DNA of 64,000 bases from Ischnura elegans. Lineage: Eukaryota > Arthropoda > Insecta > Odonata > Coenagrionidae. A model generated the notes under the pieces. The model was not told where the DNA came from, did not search any database, and saw nothing but the letters and a program-made list of their open reading frames with translations. Each line of letters begins with the position of its first letter. Within the stretch, counting starts at the first letter, position 1. This document shows positions 4,431-52,640 of this stretch, piece by piece. The stretch covers positions 89,959,030-90,023,029 of the forward strand of contig NC_060246.1 of NCBI RefSeq assembly GCF_921293095.1. Reading direction: 5' to 3'. The position numbers were made by a program, and so were the translations under genes.

Positions 4431-6607
4431 AAGAAGAGCGGTGGAAGGGAAAGTGGAAGGAGTATGACGCGGTCATGTTTCGGGGACATGATACCGGAAG
4501 CGAGGGAAAATTACACGGCACTCATTTCGCGGGAGAGAATGGAGAAATGGTGGGTGAGAGAAACGACGGGACGGAGGTTATGACCCTGGTGCCGTGCCAG
4601 AGCCATGTTTAATTTTTTTATGCGCGACCTGGTCGTTTCTTCTTTTTTTTTGTTCGTGCCCTTGCGTCGTATATCCGTCGCCACACTTTTCGATTATGTC
4701 GCCACTTGTTCCAAGTTTGTCGCTCTCGCCCACGCCTGCGGTTTTGCATCTACCGTGTTTCACTCTCTCTCCTCTGCTCAAACATTTCGTCACACTTGCT
4801 TCCCGCCCTTTTTTCGCGCCTGTCTCGCGGGCGATATCAGCTCTTGGACACCGCCTTCGCCGCCAAAAATTAACCCTCGAGCATGTTCGCGCAAAACAGG
4901 TTAAATTGCCTCGTCGACGAAAAACGTGGTATTTCCTGTTTTTTTCGTGGCGTGGTACCGAGATTTTTATCCATGCACCACAATTTAAGGCGGGAAAACA
5001 AATGTTTTAACCATGCCCGGCATTTTATCGCGGGAAAATAAATACATTAGAAAAAATGTATCATTAAAATGCCATTAGAAAGAAAATTTAAATTTCCACC
5101 CTCGTCTTGGTGCTGGAATCGCCGATGGAGATTTTTATTTTGGCGGATAACGATGAAATTATCGAGGAAATACTTATTTTTACGCATAATTATCGTAAGG
5201 TATAGATGTTATGAAATTTTGTAGAGATACGATCATAACCAAGCAAGTTTTGTAACGTGCAGATAAAACCTGTTATAACTTGATTGCAAATGAAACAGCT
5301 TCATGCGCCAGCCTGTTAAAATTGAGTATTATTTTCTGTTTTGAAGCAAAGAAAGAGGCTACTTTTGAAATATTTCCAGCTACTTCCCTCACTTATATTT
5401 TTGAAGCAAAAATCCAATGATACTTCTCTATGTAGCCTTCCACATAATATTTTACGTGAGTTTTGGTAGTGTTCTCATTTCCATCTGTAACAAGAAATCT
5501 CCAGAGAAACAAATTCAACTCTGAATTCGCTTTCATGTCATTCATTTTACCAATCAAGGTCAGCTCATGTCTGGAGATAATTTCTCTTTTTCTCGTTTCC
5601 TTTCATGTATACACTGTTATTCAATTTTCATGTGCACAAAGAACAAAAGTTACCTAAAAGGTCAACAAATTTAAGGAAAAACAATTGATCGATAAATTGC
5701 GTACCTGTTTATCTTACGATTCGCGCTTGAATTTTAAACCTGGAATATGTATCTAATGACGATCCTTTAAAACTCGCAGTAGAAAATCAACTCCTAGCAG
5801 AAACCTCGATAGTTAAATGCATTAACTCCATCAATTATTCACCTTGATGTTGACAAATTTCCTGGGGGGCTATTGCACTTGAAGAGCCGATACGGAGGAA
5901 AGTACGTTTATCTCTAAGCATTTCCATGGGGAGACATTCTAAACTTGAATTCTTTCTTGCCCTTATATTTGGTCGAAATATTTCGCGGAGGAAATTGCCG
6001 CTCAGCGGTGCAAATTTTTTATGCTGATCTCCAAATCATAAGAAGTCAATCTCACCTTCCTTCCTCGGGATACGGTGTTGCGGAAATGAATTAGTGTATT
6101 GCCTTGATTATGTAATAAAAAGAGGAAAATATGAACTCCCTATGCATCTCACTCTCACCCTAGTTACCTGTTTATCAGTCTTTCTATCGTAATGGGAACG
6201 AAGGGTTCGCAAGAATGGCCAATATGTTTCTCCCCTCTCCCCGTGTTTATCTCAGCTTCGGCCTTATTTTCTTATTCAACCTCTCCATAGCCACAACCTG
6301 CGTTCTCCGATATGCCATTACATAAATTTTCAAAACGACTCTCTCCGCCCTCTCGCATCATTGCCTTCTCTTTTTTTCCTCTACCATGTTTCCCTGTGTC
6401 ATAGTCCCTTATTCCCCTCGCAAGTTCTCACCATTGGTCTTCTTCGTTGTTCACTCAATGTCACCTATCTTTGCTCCTTTATATTTCCTCACGCATAAGC
6501 CCGATAAATGCATAAGCCTCATTGAGGGCAAATAAAAAATTGTGAATTTTATTTGACTTACCGATCATGATTATTTTTATGGCTGAATATATATGGCTAC
6601 ATTAATA
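4431..6607. other. No recognisable gene; locally GC-richer at 4430-4920
   Basis: The 4430-4920 part is richer in GC and CpG than its surroundings and open in several frames on both strands (for example 4594-5010 plus). That is expected from composition alone. No domain is recognisable. The rest is ordinary AT-rich sequence. Confidence 0.4.
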
Positions 6608-7541
6608 ATATGCATATTATATTCCCAACTAATAAATAGAGATACGTAAGAAGACCAACAATAAAAATAGGAAGAAATAGTAAATCAACAACGATAATGA
6701 TGAAACATTTTAATCTCAGAAAGATATGCACTCAGTTTCGGAGACAGACCAAACTTGTGCTTCCTTTATCCTCAATTTATCTCGAATAAAAAGTTACAAT
6801 TAAATGCCCATTTGTATGTAGCTCTCTTCATTGTGATATGAAGTGTGTTCATTCACCAACTTTCCGAAAATGAGGAAATTCTTTTCGTATTTTTGCCAAG
6901 CAGCTAAAATATGTCGTTATTTTATTTGGTTTTCTTTCCATTCTCCATTCAATTGAAATTATGACCTTTCAACCCCTTTTTTCCATCGAGTCGATATGTA
7001 CCCTGAGAAAGCTTTTTGGTACACGGATTTTTTGTGTTTCGTTCACCTCTACCAGTAAATAAGTTTTAAGCATCATAAATATATCGATGTACTTTTATTT
7101 ACGAGTTTTCAGCGTGATGAACTGCATTGTAGCTGGCTTTAGTGATAAATGTGTGTGTCCGAGTATTACCTATCATATTTTTAAAATCGCGTATACAAGA
7201 GGACACTATACATATCCAAGGTGCGAAAAACACGAGGATTGAACTTAAAAAATTCCTTCAATAATTGATTTATGCTTAAAACTTGCAAAAAGGAGACCAG
7301 AAAAAAAACCATCTACTGAGAAATTATAGACACATACGTTATTGAGCATTTTTCACCGTAGGCGCCGGAAAGTTAAGAAAATCCAGCTCCGGGTCAAGGA
7401 GCAATGAGAATAGCAGAAATTAAAATAAAAAACCTTTATACCTTTTGAAAGATCTCAGAACCCCTAATGAAGAAATTCTAATGTCACCAATAATTTATAA
7501 AAATTTCATCGCCCATAATATAACCGATTGTGAAATTTCTG
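6608..7541 (+). repeat. Dispersed repeat, copy 1 (about 934 bp)
   Basis: The sequence recurs in the same orientation at 17929-19258. Shared blocks include ATAAGTTTTAAGCATCATAA with GCGTGATGAACTGCAT, AAGCTTTTTGGTACACGGAT, and a right block GAGATCTCAGAACCCCTAAT running to AACCGATTGTGAAATTTCTG. I estimate 80-90 percent identity by eye over aligned parts. There is no long open frame, no terminal inverted repeat and no poly-A tail, so the class is unknown. It could be a non-autonomous transposon, part of a larger element, or a segmental duplication. Confidence 0.8.
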
Positions 7542-17543: not shown

Positions 17544-17928
17544 AAAATTCACGTTACCTACCTAATGTCTCTAAAAGCTATAAAATGCACTCAATTCGTT
17601 CGGTCGCCTCAGTCTTTAAGGCAATTTTAAGCTTGCGTTTATTTTAGCAACTTTAAAAATTCGGAATGAAACGAGATTTTTAACTTTTCGGCTGAGTTTT
17701 TTGGGCCTGAGTTGAGTCTTTCATAGTACCTCACCTTCACTTATCGAAACAAAAAATAGAAATTTGATAACCGAAATTTCTCCGCTAGGCGTCGCTTGAG
17801 ATGCCAATCGCTCTACCGATGAAAGAATATTTCAGCCATCATTTTAATTATGTGAGACTTTTTGAAGATAATCAAGAAATATTTATTCCAATTTTATATG
17901 TATAGACAGACCCCTTATTATTTTAATC
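17544..17928. other. Spacer, nothing recognised
   Basis: AT-rich sequence between the foldback and the second copy of the dispersed repeat. I see no feature. Confidence 0.4.
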
Positions 17929-19258
17929 AATATGCATAATATATTCCAAACTAATAAAAAGAGGTAAGTAAGAAGACCAACAATAAAAATAGCAATTAAT
18001 AGTAAAACAACAACGATAATAATGAAACATATTAATCTGAGGAAGATATGTACTCAGTTTCGTAGACATACCAAACTTGCGCTCCCTTTATCCTCAATTT
18101 ATCTCGAAAAGAAAATCACAAATTATTGTGTATTTGTATTTTGCTCTCTTTATTGTGATATGAAATGAATTCAGCCACCTACCCATCGAAAGTGTGAAAA
18201 TTCTTTTCGTATTTTTGCTGATTGGCTAAAACGTAATGTTATTTTATTTGGTTCTCTTTGCATCCTGTATTTCATTGAAATTATTGCCTTTCAACTCCAT
18301 CCTCTGTCTTCCATTGAGCTGATGCTTTCCTCCCTGACAAAGCTTTTTGGTACACGGATTTTGAGTTTTTTCGTTCACCTCTGCAAGTAAATAAGTTTTA
18401 AGCATCATAAATATATCAATGTATAGATTTATGACTTTTCAGCGTGATGAACTGCATCGTAAGTGGCTTCAGTGATAAATATTTTTGCCCGAATATTACC
18501 TAGCATATTTTTATCATCGCCTTTTCTACCCTGTTGCTCTGAGAGGAAACAATAAAAAGATCCAATGAGCGAAAAACACGCGGATAGAAATTAAAATTTT
18601 GGAGGCTTTATCCTTCAATGATTAATTTTAGCTTATAAAGTTGTAAAAACATTCGCACATTGTGGTCCGTTCACGTAAAATTACGTGTTTCCTCATCCAG
18701 TGGTAGTAGTCCGGTCACGTATTCTTGTATTATGATTTGTCACTCCCCTCTGCGGAATTATTTTGCACTGCTTGACGAAGTTATTGTTCTTGCATAGAAT
18801 AAATAAAAACATATGCATTAAAAATATATGTTCATTATAAAAACGTGTACATTTTAATGCCAAAAAAGTGCCTTAGTTCTCGAGTTGTGTGAGTTTAATG
18901 GTGTACTTGTAGTTTCTGGGTAAAAACTTAAAATTGGCCGGCCTCCGGGGCTAGTCAAATGCAAAGGGCATCGGAAGTGTTTATTGAATGATACGAGGAA
19001 AACCAACTACTGAGAAATCAGAGATAGCTACGTTATCAAACGTTTTCACACCTTAGGTGCTGGAAAATTAGGAGCATCCAGCTCCGGGTCAATGTTTTGT
19101 ATACATTAAGAGATGTAAACGTAGCGTCGCTCCTCTACTCAATTAAAAACCTTTATACCTTTTGAGAGATCTCAGAACCCCTAATGGTGAAATGCTAATG
19201 TCACCAATAGTTTATAAAAATTAAATCGCCCATAATACAACCGATTGTGAAATTTCTG
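17929..19258 (+). repeat. Dispersed repeat, copy 2, with about 340 bp inserted
   Basis: Same orientation and order of blocks as 6608-7541. Relative to copy 1 it carries extra sequence at about 18650-18992, between a TTAGCTTATAAAGTTG block and an ACTACTGAGAAAT block. The extra segment includes a short GC-rich piece (GGCCGGCCTCCGGGGCTAG) and has no clear terminal repeats. Just past the right edge, a short piece (TTATACCTT...GAGAGATCTCAG) is repeated about 106 bp after its first occurrence (19153 and 19259), so the right boundary may be a partial local duplication. Confidence 0.78.
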
Positions 19259-27119: not shown

Positions 27120-27297
27120 TTTCGTCTATTTTATTTATTTCCATTACCCCATAAATAGCACATTTACAGCCCCTACAATGGGGAATATTCACACACGCCC
27201 ATTCCCTGGAAAAGGCTTACCTACCCAGACGGGACTCGAACACGCGACCTTCGGTTTGGCAGGAGAGGACTTTACCCCGCCGCCACCAAGGCCGGCA
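27120..27297 (-). mobile_element. tRNA-derived SINE, minus strand
   Basis: Read on the minus strand from 27297, it starts TGCCGGCCTTGGTGGCGGCG (an A-box-like TGGTGGCGGCGG) and about 40 nt later has GTGTTCGAGTCCC, a good RNA polymerase III B box. Next come GGGTAGGTAAGCC and a body with TTTTCCAGGGAATGG. It ends in an ATAAATAAAATAGACG-type A-rich tail near 27120. The first 100 bp match 52265-52365 on the plus strand. SINEs of this kind are transcribed by polymerase III and moved by LINE reverse transcriptase. No flanking target duplication could be fixed. Confidence 0.8.
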
Positions 27298-28454
27298 TTT
27301 TTCATATGCTTGTCAATTATTTACTTGAATCATGAAAGATTGGTTATTGTATAATTTACAATTTCTTATCAGCAACTAATCATGCTGGTATTTAAACAGT
27401 TATAAACGGTTCTTGCGAATGTTACTAACTTCTATATTTTCATTGATTGAATACGGTTGTAAAATACCGTTCTTGATTAAAAAATTCCATTTAATGCTAC
27501 AGATACCAAGTAAGTGACCCAGTTTGGGCATTATTCCAGTTCATTCTTCAGAAGATTGCTCCTACTTAAAGTTTTATTGTAACTCGTCACATAAGGTGTA
27601 AACACGACCCGGTAAAGTAAAACACTTGAGACAAAGTAATAAGTACCTGATCGTATTCCCAACAAAAAAATGAGATATTAATGACCTTGAGCTCCAATTG
27701 ACAAGAATACCTTCCTCTGTTATATTTTTTCCTATTATCCCTAAAAAGAGGTGCACGCTTTTGTATGTTTTTTCGAGAAACGAAACACTCTCAGTCTATT
27801 CAGAGTTCATAGGTGTGTTTGAGGTCCAAAAACAACAATATTTTAGCAAGTAGTCTTCCCTAAATGGAAATTTTTGAAAAGAATTGTCGGATGAAGCGAA
27901 TATTTATAAAAGTATTATGACCCTGTAGAACTACAAACAAAGGAATTGGAGGAATAGAACGGCATCACTTCCCAAGTATGGAAGGAGTTCCCTTGTTATG
28001 GGTAGTTAAGATAAAGTTAGGACTATATTTGGATGAGACAGCGTAAAATTCGTAAGAATTTGGAAGAAGAGTTCAAAAGTGAGGTAATTTTGGGAAAAGG
28101 TATCACCGATTGCCTCCATCCAGATAGTTATCGCTCCAGTTCAAGAACCTTTCTTGGAGTTAATGTCAAATAACCTCTATCTGGGAAAAACGATACGTGC
28201 TTACAAAACTTTTGAGAACGTTTTCATAAATGCCATAAAAGAAGCTTTCAGTACCTTTGATACGCCTTTTCGTACTGATACTCTATGAAATGGTGAGTTT
28301 CGGTTACCTATTGGGTGTTCAAAGTATTTTTTCACCCCACGCTCATATATTGATGTCCTGAGGATTCTTATTCCTCGTTTGATCATACGGCTTTGGAACT
28401 CTGCTATCCGATATGCTTTTAATTGGTTCCCAATTGATTAGTTGCTCCGTATGT
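27298..28454. other. AT-rich sequence, nothing recognised
   Basis: No domains or repeats seen. It ends at the left inverted arm of the 4.6-kb unit. Confidence 0.4.
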
Positions 28455-28831
28455 GTTTTTTTAACTAACTAAGCTTATGTTTGATGAAATACCGACAAAA
28501 AATGGTAGGAACGTAGGTTGTTAGACTTTATACAGCAGATTGCATAAAGCGAAAACCTGTTATGAAAATATGTATTCATAAGTTACCAGGAGAAATTATG
28601 ATTTACCTTTTTAGAAATTAGCGCTTGCGTTTATATTTTCTCTCGCATCCACATGCGTTGTACCTGCTCATATCGTGTATTCTACTTTCGTGATTAGGAA
28701 GCAATTGGGGTGATTAATCCTTTAAAAAAATTTGCTCTTCAAGATCCCCTAATGAAATGTTGTAGATTCTTGGCCTGTGGATTTGATACATTCCTCAGGA
28801 ATACATTTCCCCGAGTAAAACCGTGCGTTTT
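28455..28831 (+). repeat. Left arm of large inverted repeat (377 bp)
   Basis: Nearly identical, in reverse complement, to 32701-33078; I count only about six substitutions plus homopolymer length differences. The outer end starts G(T)7-8 AACTAACTAAGCTTATG and the inner end is GAGTAAAACCGTGC. Homology stops sharply at both edges. The arm itself has no terminal inverted repeats and no open frame of note. Confidence 0.92.
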
Positions 28832-29600
28832 AGGATTTCTAGTATTCGGACCTTAGATCACTTAAGAAAGGTAAATACAAATGCAAGTGCACTGCGTCAG
28901 AAATATTGGAAATGAATATCTATTATAAATAATTACCAGAAGCTTACACAATAAGGGTTGACACAAAAATGATCATATTACACCAAGACAGTCAATAAAG
29001 GAATATTCCATCAGATTCAAAATTTTATTATAGCGGATAGAACAGTACATTACTAACCATCTCTAATGAGAAATACGATCTACATTTCAAAACTGAAAAT
29101 ATTTCAGATTATCAAAAAATGACCTGCGCGATATTAATTCATATTTTTCCTAATTAAATGATCCAAATTCTTTACTTATCAATATGTATATATTCAAATC
29201 AAATACATAATTTTATTCAAAATAAGTAGCTAAATTTATCAATGAAAATAAATTAATGCAACTATTACCTAACAAGAAACAATATTCATTACATTCATTG
29301 CTATTGCGATTTTCTACCTTTGAAGAAAATTCTTCTCTAAGACAACTTCTTGCTTCTTGAGAGACCTGAACTTACCACTCCAAGCTCCTAAAGGGAAGTG
29401 ACCGACACTATTTTGAGTCACCAACTTCAAGTTGCGTGTTTGCACCAATTACTCCTCAGTGCCTTTACTCTCCTCACTTCACTCACTTAACTTACTCTCG
29501 TTCCCAAGTTACAACAGCTCTTCATTTGCCTTTCACTCAGTTCAGCTAATTTTCCTCGTATACATCACACGATCTGAATTTGCTGACTTCAATTTGCCTC

Positions 29601-29692
29601 AAACTACTTCCATCAATGGTAGAATTCCTATGCACACACCCCGCCAAAACTACTTCCATCAATGGTAGAATCCCTATGCACACACCTTGCCA
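29601..29692 (+). repeat. 46-bp tandem repeat, two copies
   Basis: The unit AAACTACTTCCATCAATGGT...CACACACC...GCC occurs at 29601 and 29647 with about three differences. Confidence 0.9.
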
Positions 29693-31904
29693 TTAAGTAA
29701 TCCAAATACGCGAACAGTTCCAACGGCTCTGGAGACATGAGCGTTTCAAATTTCACACAACTACGAGCCCGTCCACCCAGAGAAATTGATTTAGTTTGGT
29801 GAAGGTCAAAGAGTCTTCTAAGCACTCAAACCGATCCAGAAATACGTTTGGATCACATCAGCGATTCCTTAGGCGAGCAGATGAAGAACTTGACTATCCT
29901 TAAGGTAAACATTCGCAAAGAGCATATCTTACTGAAATTCGTAAATATACCATTCGTTAAGTCATTTTAGTATTCCAAGAACCTCTGACGATAATATAAT
30001 TTTTTTAAAAATTGGAAAATTCTCCGAACACAAGCAATCCCACCAATCCCACTTCTGATTTACACAACAGAACATTCCTAATCAATCAATAATTTATGAG
30101 GCAGGCAAAGGTAGCAAAATAAAAAAAAATCCGTTGGCAAAGTAAATCAGTATCGAAGAATATTTTACCACTCACGACCGCACAAAACCCTTGCATATTT
30201 GTGAGAGTACATGTCTGGCGCAGGATTTCCAACTGTCTTCTTGTATTCACTTTGAATAGAGACAGTAAAAACGTGCCAGATGAAAATACTTACCTGAAAG
30301 TTACCTTAATGACATTTAATACCTAATGGAGACTTTCCGTTGGAATCTTTCCATGGAATACTTACAAAAATATTGGCGGTAGATTTCCTGAATAAGCTTG
30401 GATAAATCAATGACATTTTAAGAAGGCCGTCGAAATAAAAACAGTGATGGACATTTTCTACTCCGCACTCGTCCGACTGCGTCTCGAACACGCAAAAATC
30501 ATATGGCGCCCAAGGCACAAAGGTATTATTTCTGACCGATGCAAAATAGCAGCAAAAATTTAAGAAATGAAAATATTGAACGGAGGAGCTACGTGCTAAA
30601 GTTACGCCTGCAAAATAACGAGTAAAACTCTTCCAGTGACCCAGAGGAATTAATCTTCGTACTACCATATTTATAGCTACTAAGAATTGGTTAAAATAAG
30701 GGAAGAATATTTTCAAACGGAGGGGAGTAAGTTATTTGGTTTTACCCTGAGAAACTGAGGTTTAAACCATAGTTAATTACACCACAGTCATAACACTCGC
30801 AGCGCTCGAAGTTATCATTCATCTCTGTTAACTGCTGATGACGTAACACTCCCCGCCTTGCACCTATTGGTGGGATTCGCTGCATTAGTGGTGACATACT
30901 GAAGTAGGTTCTATCGTTCTATCCAAGAACACCAGTAGTTGAATACTTTATGCAACGGGTGGTTGAAGCAGGATGAGTTAAAAAATGACCGTGCAATGTG
31001 GACATTTACAGCCAGCCAAGATTGGAACGGCTGAAATGCTAACTAAAATACCCCAATGCTCAGACATTTTTTTTGGAAAAGTACTTTCCTGTTTTAATAA
31101 AATGACATTAATGTAATTAAAGTATTTATTGGACCTTCTTACCCTCTGCATCACATGGACGACGAAACTATAGACTTTTGCGAAAGAAAACGTAACAATT
31201 TTTAACCTCATAAAATGATAATTGAATTAATGCGACAGTAAAAACATCCAAAGTACACCAGTTTTCAGTGTGAGGACTCAGGATTGGAGTAGTTACGGGA
31301 AGAAATTCCAAGAAATCTTTTACAATCCAGTGGGATCAAAGTGAAAATCTCTTTAAAACTCTCGAATTCATGATAAGGTGAGTCCTAGTCCAAAAGCTAT
31401 ATCATGAGAATCATAGAAGAGCCGATTCTGCAAATCCTAATGTCCGAGAAATTCTTAGTTAAATGGCACACCTGAATCAAAACTGAATTTATACTTTGAA
31501 AATGTATGTCATTCAAATTCTTAACAATTAACACACTATGATCGAGCTCATAGATACAGGTTCATTATTCGATAAATACGATCTATATTTCGTTATATAC
31601 AAAAACCTCGAAAATAAATAACTTCTGCTGTCACTTCTTCTCTATTATATAATCATGTTATTTTCACTATGTTGAATCCACCCATCACAATATTTTCCCC
31701 GATTAATTTTTGCATTAATCCTTATAAAAAATGGAAATTAGCTAAAACCTTATTTTTATTCAACTAAAAAAATATCTGATCCAACTTAACACCACGCGTA
31801 AACCAAAGGTAGAGAACCCTCAAAATAACAAGCGTTGAAAGTAAAGTTAACTCATTAAACGAGAAAGAAGAGTTAGATCCAGGATTTAGACCGATTCTCT
31901 TCAT

Positions 31905-32260
31905 GCTTCATCCAGATGCCCTACTCTCTCGTTCCTCGGACGACGCACGAATGAATTTCCTCCGCCGGTGCCGCGGATGAAGCTCCATCCTCTCGCCCGT
32001 GCACCAGATCCCACCAGCCAGCGTTTTACGTTCAAGAGCCTCCCTCAGTGCTTTCATGTGGGGAGTCCGGTGGACGCAAGCCATGGCAAGTGAACGGTGG
32101 TGAGGGCCACACGCGAAAGAAAAAGAAACCCTCTCGGTGCGCGATAAGCTCAAACCCAGACGTGAGCGCTAAAGCCGTTGGTGGGGATGATGCCACGGGG
32201 AGAGAGACAAAAGCAACCGGGGCTCCAGACTTCCACGCGAGCAACGTAAATAAAGAGCCG
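31905..32260. other. GC/CpG-rich island within the inverted-arm unit
   Basis: CpG dinucleotides and GC content are clearly higher than in the AT-rich surroundings. Frames are open on both strands (31908-32153 and 32032-32244 minus; 32048-32347 plus) without recognisable domains. It lies about 450 bp inside the right arm. It could be a promoter or first exon of a gene carried by the unit, or captured host DNA. Confidence 0.4.
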
Positions 32261-32700
32261 CAAATTAATCTCTTCAGCTTTTCCCTTTATACACAGAAAC
32301 TGGGCCAGAGCCGTTTAAACTTCAATTTACCTTGTTTCCGGAGTTAATCAAATCTCACGGCTGGCTGAAGTATTCTTTTAGAGGATCGTAAGGAAGACTG
32401 CAAGGCCAAATGGTATTCGAGTGGGCCATTTACACATGAAGCCCCGTCTAACATCTGTTTTCATACTCAGCAAAAGAATGAAACTTTTTTAAAAATAAGA
32501 ATGAAACTTTCGTTTTTTTTATGGGTCAAATTTAGTTTTCAATGATGTTGCCTTTTTCAACTCATTAGTTGAAGGTGAACCTCGAATCCATTTATCCATT
32601 AGATAAACTTATTTAATCAATAAAAGCTTAGCTGTTAGCAATGGTGGATAACAACAAAAAACATTTTGAGTTTCAAAGGAAAAAAATATCAAGTAAAAGA

Positions 32701-33078
32701 AAAGGCACGGTTTTACTCGAGGAAATGTATTCCTGAGGAATGTATCAAATCCACAGGCCAAGAATTTACAACATTTCATCAGGGGATCTTGAAGAGCAAA
32801 TTTTTTTAAAGGATTAATCACCCCAATTGCTTCCTAATCACGAAAGTAGAATACACGATATGAGCAGGTACAACGCATGTGGATGCGAGAGAAAATATAA
32901 ACGCAAGCGCTAATTTCTAAAAAGGTAAATCATAATTTCTCCTGGTAACTTATGAATACATATTTTCATAACAGGTTTTCGCTTTATGCAATCTGCTGTA
33001 TAAAGTCTAACAACCTACGTTCCTACCATTTTTTTTCGGTATTTCATCAAACATAAGCTTAGTTAGTTAAAAAAAAAC
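32701..33078 (-). repeat. Right arm of large inverted repeat (378 bp)
   Basis: Reverse complement of 28455-28831 at about 98 percent identity by eye. Its outer edge (33078) lies only 267 bp before the transposase start codon. The flanks outside the two arms share no obvious target duplication. Confidence 0.92.
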
Positions 33079-33108
33079 AATAAATTACAAATAATAAATA
33101 AAAATAGA

Positions 33109-33201
33109 GCTACCTCGGCAATATTGAATGCATAAAATGTATATTATTGCGAGTGCCGGGCAAAGTAGCCACGGTAGCCGTAGCAATTGCCGAAGTAGCT
33201 T
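33109..33201. repeat. 15-bp inverted repeat enclosing a transposase-element motif
   Basis: AGCTACCTCGGCAAT (33109-33123) is complementary to ATTGCCGAAGTAGCT (33187-33201) with one mismatch. Between them is GGGCAAAGTAGCCA (33158-33171), one mismatch from the motif repeated three-prime of the transposase. It could be part of the left subterminal region of the Tigger-like element. Confidence 0.55.
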
Positions 33202-33344
33202 AAATGAATTAATATCTCATCCTATACGTATCTCATCACGCTCCTGGGGAAAGGGACGCAAACACTCATCCCAACTTATTAACATAAAAAATATTATCTT
33301 ATCACATAACTATTAGGATTGATATTGTTACAGGTATTTCCAAG

Positions 33345-33671
33345 ATGCCATATACATACAAGAGAAAGTCTACCCAACAATCATGGGATTCAGAATCAAT
33401 GCGACAGGCAATATTAGCAGTTAAAAGAGATAAAATGCCGTTTGCAACTGCAGCAAAGCAGTTTAACGTTCCTAGAAATACCCTTAAAAGAAGAGTACTT
33501 GAGAAGAATCAAGATGCCACTGGTGAGAAAAAAATACTAGGAAAGTACAGAAAAGTATTTAACGATGAACAAGAGAAGCAACTAGTAGAATTTATTATAG
33601 ACATGGAGAGAAGATTTTATGGAGTCTCACAAAATGACTTACGCCGTGCGGCATACAGCCTCGCAGAATAA
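33345..33671 (+). CDS. N-terminal HTH part of the transposase (108 codons, ends at stop)
   Basis: This is the part upstream of the in-frame TAA. It encodes the pipsqueak/CENPB-type HTH and the start of the second DNA-binding half (to RRAAYSLAE). If translated alone it would give a DNA-binding protein without catalytic domain, which could in principle bind the element's ends. I treat it as a fragment of the broken gene. Confidence 0.7.
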   Translation: MPYTYKRKSTQQSWDSESMRQAILAVKRDKMPFATAAKQFNVPRNTLKRRVLEKNQDATGEKKILGKYRKVFNDEQEKQLVEFIIDMERRFYGVSQNDLRRAAYSLAE

Positions 33672-33707
33672 AACAACATCCATCACACTTTCAACAACGA
33701 AAAAAAG

Positions 33708-34982
33708 ATGGCGGGGAAGGATTGGGTGGCAGGATTTAAAAAAAGGCACCCAAACATAAGTTTGCGGACCCCAGAAGCCACTTCATTAGCAAGAGCTCAA
33801 GGGTTCAACAAGACCAATGTATCTAAATTTTTTGAAATATTAAAAACAGTCCAAGATAAACATAAGTTTGAAGCTCATCGTGTTTTTAATTGTGATGAAA
33901 CCGGGCTTTTAACTGTACAAAATAGACATTCAAAAGTGTTTGCCTTGAAAGGAAGGCGACAGGTGGGTGCGATCACTTCTGCCGAAAGAGGCCTTCTCTC
34001 TACATTAGAAGTCTGTATGTCTGCTGGAGGAACCTTTATTCCTCCCTTTGTCGTTTTTCCCAGGAAGAATATGAAGGCAGAGCTAAGAGACGGAGCACCC
34101 CCTGGTTCAGAATTCGCATGCACTCCTAATGGCTGGATGCAGACCGATATTTTCTTGAAATGGTTCGACCACTTCCTACATCACGCAAAACCTTCACCAG
34201 AGTCACCAGTGCTTCTTATTTTAGATGGGCATGCAACTCACACAAAAAGTATTGACTTCATAATCAAGGCCAGAGAAAATAACACAACTGTGGTATGCTT
34301 ACCTCCACACTGCAGCCATAAGTTACAGCCCCTAGACGTGTCTTTTATGGCACCTTTTAAGACCTACTGCATTCAAGAATTTGAGAATTTCTTCAGGAAT
34401 AACCCTGGGAGAGCCATCACTCAGTTCCAGATTAGTAGACTTCTTGGTGAGGCTTTTTTGCGTGCAGCTGTGCCTGCAACAGCTATTAACGGTTTTCGAA
34501 AATGTGGGATTTTTCCTTATGACCCTGATGTGTTTTGTGATGCTGACTTCCTCCCCTCTGAAGTGTCTGACATTCCAATGACCGACTGCACCATAGGTGC
34601 TAGCCTACAATCAGGTGGAGGTGAACCTGACCCCGCACCACAGAAGAAGAGAACAACAGATGAATCCGAAAAAGGTCAAGATGTAGGCCTAATGATCAAT
34701 CCAAGAAACGGCGGTGAAGATGTCGGTGAAATGGTTAAAGTTAACTTACCTAACAATGAAGATTTGGCAGTTGCTGGACCTAGTGGCCTAAATAAGTCCT
34801 CTTTTGCAATCAGTCCAAGAGATATAATTCCGTTGCCAAAACAAACCTTGACAAAGCAAAGGAAACAAAACAGGAAAAAAGGAAAGACAGCCATCATTAC
34901 AGCTAGCCCGTACAAAAATGAACTGATGGAAGAGATACAAAAGAGACAGGAAGAAGAAGAAAAGAAGAGAGAAAAGAACTGA
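33708..34982 (+). CDS. Catalytic part of the transposase, 424 codons uninterrupted
   Basis: Same frame as the fragment before it, 12 codons after the TAA. All three DDD aspartates are present (residues 63, 173 and 210 from this ATG), as are QPLD and the conserved GFRKCGIFPYDPDVF block near residues 259-273. The intact frame over 1.27 kb suggests the inactivating changes are recent. It ends early because of the frameshift, losing the PHD finger. Confidence 0.85.
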   Translation: MAGKDWVAGFKKRHPNISLRTPEATSLARAQGFNKTNVSKFFEILKTVQDKHKFEAHRVFNCDETGLLTVQNRHSKVFALKGRRQVGAITSAERGLLSTLEVCMSAGGTFIPPFVVFPRKNMKAELRDGAPPGSEFACTPNGWMQTDIFLKWFDHFLHHAKPSPESPVLLILDGHATHTKSIDFIIKARENNTTVVCLPPHCSHKLQPLDVSFMAPFKTYCIQEFENFFRNNPGRAITQFQISRLLGEAFLRAAVPATAINGFRKCGIFPYDPDVFCDADFLPSEVSDIPMTDCTIGASLQSGGGEPDPAPQKKRTTDESEKGQDVGLMINPRNGGEDVGEMVKVNLPNNEDLAVAGPSGLNKSSFAISPRDIIPLPKQTLTKQRKQNRKKGKTAIITASPYKNELMEEIQKRQEEEEKKREKN

Positions 34983-35104
34983 AGACAAAAAAAAATAACC
35001 AAACAAAAAAACGTAATCAACAGCCTAAAAAAACTCTCCAGCTAAAGAGACGACTCAATTTTGACGATGAAGAAGAAGAAAAGCTTAAGGAGCAAGAACA
35101 AGAT

Positions 35105-35254
35105 TGTACGTGTTTCTATTGCAATGAACTATTTTCTAAATCAAAAGACAATGAAGGTTGGATCCGATGTTCTGTGTGCAAAGAATGGGCTCACCAAGAG
35201 TGTGCAGGGGTTGAGGAGGACGATGACGAGTTTGAATGTGAATTTTGTAAATAA
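35105..35254 (+). pseudogene. PHD-type zinc finger exon-like segment, frameshifted tail of transposase
   Basis: The translated segment has cysteine pairs CxxC (CFYC), CxxC (CSVC), a WxHxxC (WAHQEC) and a final CxxC (CEFC) directly before the stop codon. This is the PHD C4HC3 pattern used by chromatin readers of histone H3 tails. It lies one frame away from the main transposase frame. A PHD finger at the end of a pogo/Tigger transposase suggests possible chromatin-guided targeting, which is inference. Confidence 0.8.
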
Positions 35255-35436
35255 TTTGTAAGCCACTAAAAAATCTCTTAATGCTCCAGTAGTCATGAGG
35301 ATTCCTTTTTAACTTTGTTATTCTACATGTAAAAAGAGTATAACAGTTTTTCTACTGGACATATTTCCTTAATTATTTTAGTTTTTGAGACGATTATACA
35401 AGTTAGAAGTAAATTTATCTTTACTGTATTGTGAAA

Positions 35437-35442
35437 AATAAA
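35437..35442 (+). promoter_or_regulatory. Candidate polyadenylation signal
   Basis: AATAAA lies about 180 bp after the stop of the PHD segment and before the terminal motif cluster, a sensible place for the transposase mRNA 3-prime end. Confidence 0.45.
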
Positions 35443-35484
35443 TACCTGAAAATTAAATAGCTGTTGTTTGACGTAAATTGTCAG

Positions 35485-35523
35485 GTCGGGCAAAGTGGCC
35501 AGGGCCTGGCCACTTTGCCCGAC
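35485..35523. repeat. Perfect 39-bp palindrome of the terminal motif
   Basis: Nineteen-base arms around one central base at 35504. Each arm reads GTCGGGCAAAGTGGCCAGG. It consists of two GGGCAAAGTGGCCA motifs in opposite orientation. It may be two abutting element ends or a strong transposase binding site. Confidence 0.9.
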
Positions 35524-35526
35524 ATA

Positions 35527-35730
35527 GGAGGGTAAAGTGGCCATTTAGAGTTTTTTGTTAATAATTTTTTTTTTGCACTTTAACGTATACAATATCATGA
35601 AAAACGCATGTTTACCTGAAACTTTATTTGATATAGTACACATCAATATTTGTTTCGATTAAATTTACTAAAAACAAATGCCAAAAAAAAACACCAAACA
35701 AAAAGGTGGCCACTTTACCCGTCTCTCCCC
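35527..35730. mobile_element. 204-bp TA-flanked MITE related to the Tigger-like element
   Basis: TA at 35525-35526 and 35731-35732 flank GGAGGGTAAAGTGGCCA at the left and TGGCCACTTTACCC plus GTCTCTCCCC at the right. The ends are inverted copies apart from about 5 bp missing at the left. It may be a separate non-autonomous relative or simply the terminal part of the transposase element. Confidence 0.6.
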
Positions 35731-36254
35731 TACCAATGCTAATACTAAATACTTATAAATTCGGGTAAATCGCGGTATTTATTTATATTTCGATTATTTT
35801 TAACTATTATTTAAATGCTTTAGATACTGAAGAACTCTCTATATACTCTCCCTGGATTATTTTATGAAGTACAATGAAAAGAATGAATGGACACTTCCTC
35901 GCTTTGTGAGCTTCATTCGTTAGCTCTTTCCGCAATAATTGAATCAATTCTAGTGGGCTATGACTATTCATTACCCTCGGCTTTACCACTTCCCTCCACA
36001 TCAAAAATTTATATTGTGAATTTGTTCTCACGAAAATCGAAATATTGCTACATAATCTATTTCATAGGCGTTATCTTAAGGGACATTTTTCCATTAAAAA
36101 TCAAATGACTGATTAGATTCCATTCCGATGATTGGAATGACCTAAGAGGACTACTATATTTCCGTTTAAAGAGAAAAAAATTTGACTTTCATCTTGCTGG
36201 GACTATACGTACCTGGTGGGTATGGCATGTAATATGAAAATCATGCCCATTATT

Positions 36255-36419: not shown

Positions 36420-39400
36420 GGCAAACTGAGAAGACTTTTTGCATTTTGCGTTTCGATTAAAAACCTCAAATATTTCATCCAGAACTTTACTCTTTATTAA
36501 ATCTATTCAGAGCAACCAAAAGTCCTGTTCATTCATTCACATGATAGAGCAAGAGTTTGTTTGTACATTTTCCATAATAAAAAGGGTAGTTAGCAAGTAA
36601 TGGTCTATCTTATACCGGGATCACTTCTAGTTATTATTCTTATCCCATTTCTCTACTTTGAATATCCTTACTTTTATCGAACGGGCATTTTCATCTTGAA
36701 TTCATTATATGGATTCCTCGTGGAGCTCCTGAAATTGAATATTTTGGTCACACGCGATTTGACCCACTTACCTGCCGACGAGGCCGTCGAGAAGGAACAC
36801 ATGGCGAGAACAACAATGAGTCGCTTGCATAAACCAGCGCTGCCATTTGGCAGTGGTGTCCCACTAGGATGGAGGGGCTCGATTTGGAAGGATGGCGATG
36901 CAATTCTCGGAACTCGATCCTAATTTTTTCATTTTCTCTGAGGAGAAAAAAATTTATTTCCTAAATACATTCTTCCATTTTATTTACTTCACAGCATTAG
37001 AGTTGATAGAAAAAGTACCATTATTTTATTATTGAAATTTCGATCGCAACATTGGGTTGAAAACAAACCAGCGGGTCAATTATTTTTTTCCATGGTCGTT
37101 AATCTACTATTATATCGACGTGACCGTCAAATAACTTGAACAATGGAGCATAGAAATAATACGGACGTCAATGTACGGCTGATGCAAATGACATTTATGA
37201 AATTCATGTAGCTGAAGGTATAAAATCACAAATACGAACCAATAAAGGATATGGTATTGATAAGCGAATGTAAATAGTTCGACTTTTGCCCTGTTTCTAT
37301 TAATAAGACTGCTATTTTTATTTATTTCAATGGCCCACCTACGGATGGATATAGTCGCCATTGTGGATACTCGTTCGCATAACAAGGACATGTCCATATT
37401 AGACGACTTATGTGGGCAGCTGAAAGCTATAAAGATGCATTAGCTATGGAGCTGTCGTCAGTCATTATAATTCCCAAAATTTCGCGGTTAGAGATTGTCT
37501 TCAGTTGAAAATATAGGATTCGAAACATTCCTATCGTATTATCTCTGAGTGAATATGAATTTTCCTAACAATATAGCTCTCAAATAAGCTTATTTGCAGG
37601 TTTAGACAATTTGCTATGGGAACTTTGAGGTTGAGAAATAAATAAAAAAGCTTACACAGTGTGACAGCAATGATCGAACTACCTTGCCGCTTTTAGCTTG
37701 GCCAAGTTGATGCTATGCACGAAAAGGGAGATTTATACGGAGGACTAACCTTTTTTAATTTTCCTTTCGATTTCATTATGGAGAGATTTTTATTTCCAAT
37801 AGGTGTGAGTGTGTCGCAAATTGAGTTAGAGGAGAAATTTTTGCAACCGTGGGAGGTCAGCTATGTAACGGTCTCACATTCATTTGAATTCCTCGGTAGC
37901 TTTTTATCATTTTGCAACAAAGCGGAGGTACCAAAAATACCATTACAAATAGGCGTTGCATAATATATGAGTAACTCCATCTGTGGGTAGCTTTTTATTG
38001 TGGATTATTCCAGTATTTAAATTTGCAATAAGAATCGTTTTTAACGCAATTGGTCATGCATGGAATTATGTAGCTGTCGGAATTAAGTACACAATTATGT
38101 ATAAAATATACTATTCTAATGGATGGCTATGAGTCGCCATGGTTTTCTTGACAAAAGAGGTTTTCATTTTGTTTACATTAATTGTACCGGGAAAAGTTGA
38201 ACAGCCTCTAGTTAGGCTTGATACGTAATTTGATAGCTCGAACTCTTTTTGGAAGGTACGGATTCATAAAATGATTTTCAGTGGTTTTTTGAATTTATCT
38301 AATGTTTACACCCCTCGTTAAGAGTCAAACCCTCTGTTTTTGGCATCACGAGTAGCCATTTTTTGAGAGAATTCCGTAATTTTGACTGCTAAATTGATTG
38401 ACCAGTGTGTCAGGTCATTTATTCAGTTTGTGTTGATGCAAATTTTTGATCTCGCACTGATTGGCTACGAATTTTTTTCTGCAGCTGAAGCTGAAAATAA
38501 AATGAAATACGATTTTAAATTATACGTGTCCAACTGTATTGCCAATTCATGTCATTAGACACTTTCCCAGTATTTTTTCCATTCGCTTTCAGTCGCAGCA
38601 AACAAAATCGAACCCTCTTTTCCATTAATGTGTGGAAACATAAAACGTAGCGAAAGAGGTTGGATTTCCACCTTTAAAAAATGTTCTCAAAATATTGAAT
38701 ATAGACCGGTCCACCTATCGAGACCGGTAATCTAAAAAAACAGCAAATTAAATTGTTATATTACACGAGCTATATGTTTTGTGTTGAAATATTACCATGC
38801 TATTGTATTGAAAACCTATTTTTATGCTCAGTTACTTGAATAATGTCGTCACAAAATTGCCATTCAATGGCATGGAATTCCAATACTATTCCGTTATTGA
38901 GTTAAAAAAGGGGAGAATGGTATCAGATCTCTCTCGGTCGAATCAAATCACATGTACTGGATTTGCATCATAATTTTGTGCAAAGCCTATTCTCTATGAG
39001 CAATAAAAAAGAAAAAATTGTGAGCCATCACTCATTGGCGCCTTGCAAGGCCATCATTTTGTCGCTGGAGAGCATTCAAAATTTTTTGTCGCACATGAGC
39101 TCCAGATAGGGGTTGTATGTTTTTTTAAAAGGCAAGAGATTGGTCGCTCTTCTGGGATGTCTCTAGGTGCAGTCGAAGAAAATGCGGAAGGCCGAAGGCA
39201 CGGATGCAAATTGGGATGGGATATTTGGCTGAGGGAGGGAAAGGGGCACCTGGAAAAGGAAGCCGAGATCGGAAGCGAGAGGAAGGGCTGGAGCAGTTGG
39301 GTGGAATAGAAAAGATATAAGAATGGTGCCCGTGCTACTTGCTACGGTATGGAAGGGGTAACGCGACGCCTCGTCTTTTTTTAGAGCTTACTGCGGCCTT

Positions 39401-52264: not shown

Positions 52265-52640
52265 TGCCGGCCTTGGTGGCGGTGGGGTATGGTCTTACCA
52301 AACCAAAGGTCACGGGTTCCAGTCCCGCCTTGGTAAGTTATCCTTATCCAGGGCATGGATTTTTCAGTACGTTTGGTAGGGCCTCCTTCGCTTCTATAGC
52401 GCTGGAGTGTTTTATCCCTGTTTCCCTCCCTTCCATCCCTCTCCTTTCCCTGGAGGCGTCGGCGGGCTCCGATCGCGACGGCGCCTCTCTCCCTTTTCCT
52501 TCCTCTCCAGCCCCTCCCCGGGATACCTGGCGTATAAGCCCCTGGCTTGGTTCCGGGCCCCAGTGCGTTGTACCCTTAGCAGGGTTCGCCTTGAACCCTG
52601 AGAGTTCTTGTACGTTTGATTATCAACCGATTTGATCGAT
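52265..52640 (+). mobile_element. tRNA-derived SINE, plus strand, with GC-rich body
   Basis: The head TGCCGGCCTTGGTGGCGGTG carries an A-box-like sequence; about 35 nt later comes GGGTTCCAGTCCC, a B box with one change. The next part, TTATCCAGGGCATGG, corresponds to TTTTCCAGGGAATGG of the minus-strand copy at 27.1 kb. The body 52380-52600 is pyrimidine- and GC-rich with CTGGAGGCGTCGGCGGGCTC and ends near a CGTTTGATTAT block. The open frame 52234-52635 is a by-product of this composition. Confidence 0.75.

Follow-up and report, generated by a model that had tools for sequence, protein, structure and literature searches.

A 4.6-kb unit with inverted arms beside a truncated Tigger-like transposon in Ischnura elegans: a probable local inverted duplication by template-switch repair

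A 4.6-kb unit in the genome of the damselfly Ischnura elegans, composed of two nearly identical inverted arms and a 3.9-kb interior, is probably a recent local inverted duplication of single-copy host DNA formed by template-switch DNA repair, and not a transposon. The unit lies within a 64-kb window, meaning the whole stretch of DNA analyzed here, and is followed on its right by a damaged Tigger/pogo-like DNA transposon. We infer template-switch repair because the truncated Tigger end, a fold-back piece of Tigger itself, and an inverted copy of host DNA lie together, the last only 28 bp away.

The left arm (positions 28452-28831, plus strand) and the right arm (32700-33079, minus strand) match each other pairwise in an ungapped inverted alignment of 380 nt with six differences (98.42% identity), separated by a spacing of 3868 nt. 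Homology ends within a few bases at each of the four arm edges, confirming the inverted arms and the sharp borders given in the preliminary description. T runs form the outermost bases of the arms, and trimming leaves a 371-nt core, the reliable part of the arm, with four differences (1.1% divergence). In a microhomology check, A/T runs were the sole short matches at both arm edges; such matches count as poor microhomology and are weak evidence. The divergence of 1.1-1.6% fits the recent formation proposed earlier. As for gene conversion, proposed as its alternative, an identical run of at least 254 nt with four differences in 371 has a P of about 0.05 under random placement, which makes conversion between the arms a possibility.

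At the thresholds used, no further copy of the arm or the interior is present in the 64-kb window. Self-comparison of the window (E ≤ 1e-6) revealed two other inverted pairs, one of 57 bp at 84% and one of about 99 bp at 79% (27199-27297 and 52265-52358), the latter presumably resembling a tRNA-derived short repeat. A direct repeat pair at 6602-7541 and 17923-19258 shares 77-78% identity over ~730 and ~260 aligned columns. The window contains no Rfam family at gathering score and no tRNA detected by ARAGORN. In a control covering 200 kb of contig C2, with thresholds of ≥100 bp, ≥85% identity, and a distance of <30 kb, a single inverted pair passed, a 101-bp hairpin with a 152-bp gap; judged on this small 200-kb sample, an inverted pair such as the arms is uncommon. 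Tandem Repeats Finder (score ≥50) detected no tandem arrays within either arm, the left arm taken as single-stranded DNA lacks strong folding (z -0.91), and an exact 26-mer of the arm has no match in viral contigs.

Whole-genome searches, covering 1,722,721,009 bases in 110 contigs, place the arms at one locus. The arm query returned two candidates and two matches, both of them the arms themselves, and the left flank (27700-28470) matches itself alone. The interior (28832-32699) matches itself and at least 39 other places, all within 31585-31725 and at 72-84% identity; this count is a lower bound, with 40 of 50 candidates scored. Simple repeats and very frequent words are passed over by the search. 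Searches of this type pick up copies at 72-84% identity (the interior repeat) and at 65-68% (distant Tigger relatives), so an ordinary repeat family of the arms should have been seen, and by these matches the arms are taken to be a single-locus sequence. The preliminary description had proposed just such an arm search of the host genome, and its outcome, a single locus in 1.72 Gb around an interior that is single copy save for one old repeat, favors the local inverted duplication listed there as the last of three options.

HiFi reads are usually longer than 4.6 kb. An assembly artefact, in whose favor nothing was found, is therefore scarcely credible: the arms differ from each other at 4-6 sites, the 3.9-kb interior is unique, and the Ischnura elegans assembly ioIscEleg1.1 was built from HiFi reads, as stated in an excerpt of its description (PMC9975421).

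The other two options, both involving mobile elements, did not survive the tests of copy number and target-site duplication (TSD). Around the whole unit, within 14 bp of its edges, the best candidate TSD is 6 nt long with its second copy inside the right arm; of 150 places chosen at random, 44 reach at least 6 and 15 reach at least 7. Around the single arms, the best candidates reach 5 nt (left) and 7 nt (right, composed of A-runs), neither above random places. A large foldback or long-terminal-inverted-repeat transposon is not supported, given the copy number, with only the arms themselves matched (2/2), together with the lack of a TSD above random. Two oppositely oriented copies of one dispersed element were likewise rejected, with no further copies in the genome and no TSD above random at either arm. 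Outward A-tailed retroposed copies, considered for the A-runs at the tips, show no target duplication beyond the A-runs and were also discarded.

Apart from the ~140-bp segment at 31585-31725, the interior occurs once in the genome; the segment is a dispersed repeat whose divergence from its other copies suggests that it is older than the arms. The interior itself would accordingly predate the arms, judging by divergence, because it holds this much older repeat. The interior fully contains 19 stop-free fragments of 50 aa or longer, and scanning all of them yielded no Pfam match above the gathering cut-off, in agreement with the earlier statement that no transposase is recognizable there; two further fragments running into the right arm and one in the left arm have no match whatever. 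Sub-threshold rows appear in five of the 19 fragments (E 0.02-0.07, each to another family) and are taken as chance. The interior was also described as containing a CpG-rich island: the patch exists (GC 0.54, CpG o/e 0.99), but it is ordinary here, as CpG o/e is 0.97 across the whole window and about a dozen places in it exceed GC 0.5 and o/e 0.6 over 300 bp. At 29601-29692, a 46-bp unit is present in two tandem copies that are 93% alike.

These properties of the arms and interior bear on one further mobile-element reading, insertion at TTAA of a single-copy transposon whose terminal inverted repeats measure ~370 bp; we consider it very improbable. Each arm tip does carry TTAA (28461-28464 and 33067-33070), and the T-run before and A-run after the unit would form a plausible target. 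Being a palindrome, however, TTAA is bound to appear twice in homologous inverted arms, so its presence at both tips provides no independent evidence. Arm homology, moreover, continues past TTAA into the T-run, no other copy of the arm or the interior was found, the interior carries an old repeat, and the fragments scanned contain no Pfam domain above cut-off.

To the right, the unit abuts a Tigger-like gene, as first reported, with 106 bp separating the right arm from the truncated body of a Tigger/pogo-like DNA transposon (33186-35730, plus strand). This copy is missing its left ~460 bp and retains an intact right end followed by TA at 35731-35732. Its transposase (33345-35261), interrupted by a single in-frame stop at 33669-33671, matches the Pfam families DDE_1 (2.7e-23) and HTH_psq (2.8e-06), both above cut-off, and HTH_Tnp_Tc5 below cut-off only; the name Tigger derives from the DDE_1 and HTH_psq domains and from the earlier reader, not from a repeat library. 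Inverted ends of the form GGGGAG... and flanked outside by TA are found at the left in the relatives on C15, C3, and C6 and at the right in those on C15 and C3 and in the window copy. The marks of the Tigger/pogo-like class are thus all present: the DDE_1 domain, the inverted ends, and a TA target. By eye, a cysteine-rich, zinc-finger-like stretch is visible in another frame past the end of the main transposase frame.

Four close relatives of the window copy occur in the genome, those on C3 and C15 at 98% identity, the one on C6 at 97%, and the one on C2 also at 97%, with a match limited to 786 bp of the query. All three of the extended relatives (C15, C3, and C6) possess a left end, located 461 bp upstream of the point at which the window copy is truncated. 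The C2 relative (C2:52929471-52930071) aligns along the ~350 bp of upstream sequence retrieved and carries one extra unit of ~25 bp, arranged in tandem in its left part. The C6 copy ends before the right end and is another truncated member of a young family. The Tigger copies show two to three differences in 243 positions at the left end and one to five in 257-258 at the right end.

The junction between the unit and the transposon is composite. Reading rightward, the right arm is followed by a 28-bp AT-rich link (33080-33107), a 72-bp inverted Tigger piece (33108-33179, minus strand), a 6-bp filler (33180-33185), and the Tigger body starting at 33186. The 72-bp piece is 94-96% identical to family copies (three copies aligned), with 69 of 72 positions alike in the C15 copy, and has the opposite orientation in all four relatives. 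It may stem from another Tigger copy, because three of its 72 sites differ from the family. The 31-nt pattern at 33077-33107, which spans the link, occurs nowhere else in the genome when up to three mismatches are allowed, and the longest match of the link within the window is 15 bp at 37312-37326. Two properties characteristic of repair duplications are found here: the arm, left-flank, and interior searches identify the source as single-copy local DNA, and the junction beside the right arm is complex, combining the 72-bp inverted piece, the 6-bp filler, and the loss of ~460 bp.

Template-switch repair would account for this arrangement as follows. A break at or near the left end of the Tigger copy, presumably made by transposase, would have been accompanied by loss of the left ~460 bp. 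One broken end would then have been extended by copying, first through the 72-bp fold-back of Tigger itself and next, past the short AT-rich stretch, through ~370-380 bp of host sequence from 4 kb away, placed in inverted orientation as the right arm, before the ends were joined. The left arm would probably have served as source, with the right arm as the derived, inserted copy; the outer edges do not give this polarity, because the genome searches show no dispersed repeat crossing either of the two outer arm edges. Ages estimated from divergence would be compatible, the 1.1% of the arm core being of the same order as that among the Tigger copies (97-98% identical to the window copy).

Both inverted pieces, the 72-bp Tigger piece and the right arm, may come from one event. 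In its full form, this proposal holds that one break at an insect germ-line DNA transposon, followed by chained inverted switches, first into the transposon and then into host DNA, wrote the 4.6-kb unit in one step; we put it forward tentatively, as a possibility that falls short of even confidence. The arm and the Tigger damage may also represent two events, because no other copy of the 28-bp link is present in the genome, so that it possibly belongs to the original flank. In such a combination, host DNA would have been duplicated locally in inverted orientation, and the Tigger left end, 28 bp off, would have undergone fold-back repair on another, unrelated occasion. This agrees with the uniqueness of the link, which is expected of original flank, but is distinctly improbable: closeness by chance amounts to about 0.3-2% in a rough post hoc estimate (four edges, ±28 bp, 10-64 kb), and the divergences of the arms and of Tigger are similar.

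The main rival of template-switch repair is a staggered-break micro-inversion of the 3.9-kb interior, in which an overhang filled in at one breakpoint would be duplicated, in inverted orientation, at both ends, with the other break at Tigger. It accounts for the arms equally well, predicting an interior and flanking inverted arms that all consist of single-copy sequence; the position of one break beside the damaged Tigger fits as well, and the mechanism is known at Drosophila inversions according to an excerpt of PMC7584159. It nevertheless appears unlikely. Had the interior once ended at the intact Tigger left end, a Tigger remnant might persist at the left inner edge near 28832; a blastn comparison of the window with three Tigger left ends shows none at that place, although such a remnant may have been lost. 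The inversion alone also leaves the 72-bp inverted Tigger piece unexplained, a piece that template-switch repair would produce in the same series of copying steps.

A transposon-looking structure can be a repair scar, and copy number together with the state of a neighboring transposon tells the two apart. Were the one-step reading both true and general, broken transposon ends would give rise to new long inverted repeats that are foldback-like yet immobile. Long inverted repeats can bring about inversion of the intervening DNA or exchange sequence with each other. Inverted pairs like these arms also mislead repeat annotation. The wider importance of the present case is modest, as it concerns one locus in which no known gene was found. 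No description of the locus was found in the literature, as judged from titles and the beginnings of abstracts, which is no proof of its being undescribed.

Foldback and long-terminal-inverted-repeat transposons share with this unit the long, near-identical inverted arms and an interior without known protein domains. Foldback proper carries internal tandem repeats in its arms. The unit differs from these transposons in having no other genomic copies, no TSD above chance, and no tandem repeats in the arms. Another parallel is provided by the breakpoints of the Drosophila O7 inversion, where, in the excerpted text of PMC7584159, a single-copy segment is likewise inverted at both ends of a unique interior, and where template switching is proposed as an alternative explanation for inverted duplications. 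Compared with O7, the interior here is only 3.9 kb, and an inversion would be hypothetical at this locus.

The templated insertions of yeast and cancer offer the remaining comparison. As summarized in part of PMC11724301, local inverted templated insertions, including ones of several pieces, occur at breaks; most templated events at induced breaks measure ~50-300 bp, cancers are said to have insertions exceeding a megabase, and fold-backs at breaks range from 2 to ~150 bp, most being under 14. Measured against the values in that part of the source, the right arm is longer than the usual ~50-300 bp and the 72-bp fold-back is longer than most. The setting also differs, here an insect genome beside a transposon, with the mechanism read from one sequence. 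Several switches are permitted by the MMBIR model (PMC2621351). With the insertions in the excerpt of PMC11724301, the unit shares local inverted copies and several pieces per junction and, putatively, in its A/T runs, short shared bases at the edges, and it is most likely a new instance of this known kind of repair product.
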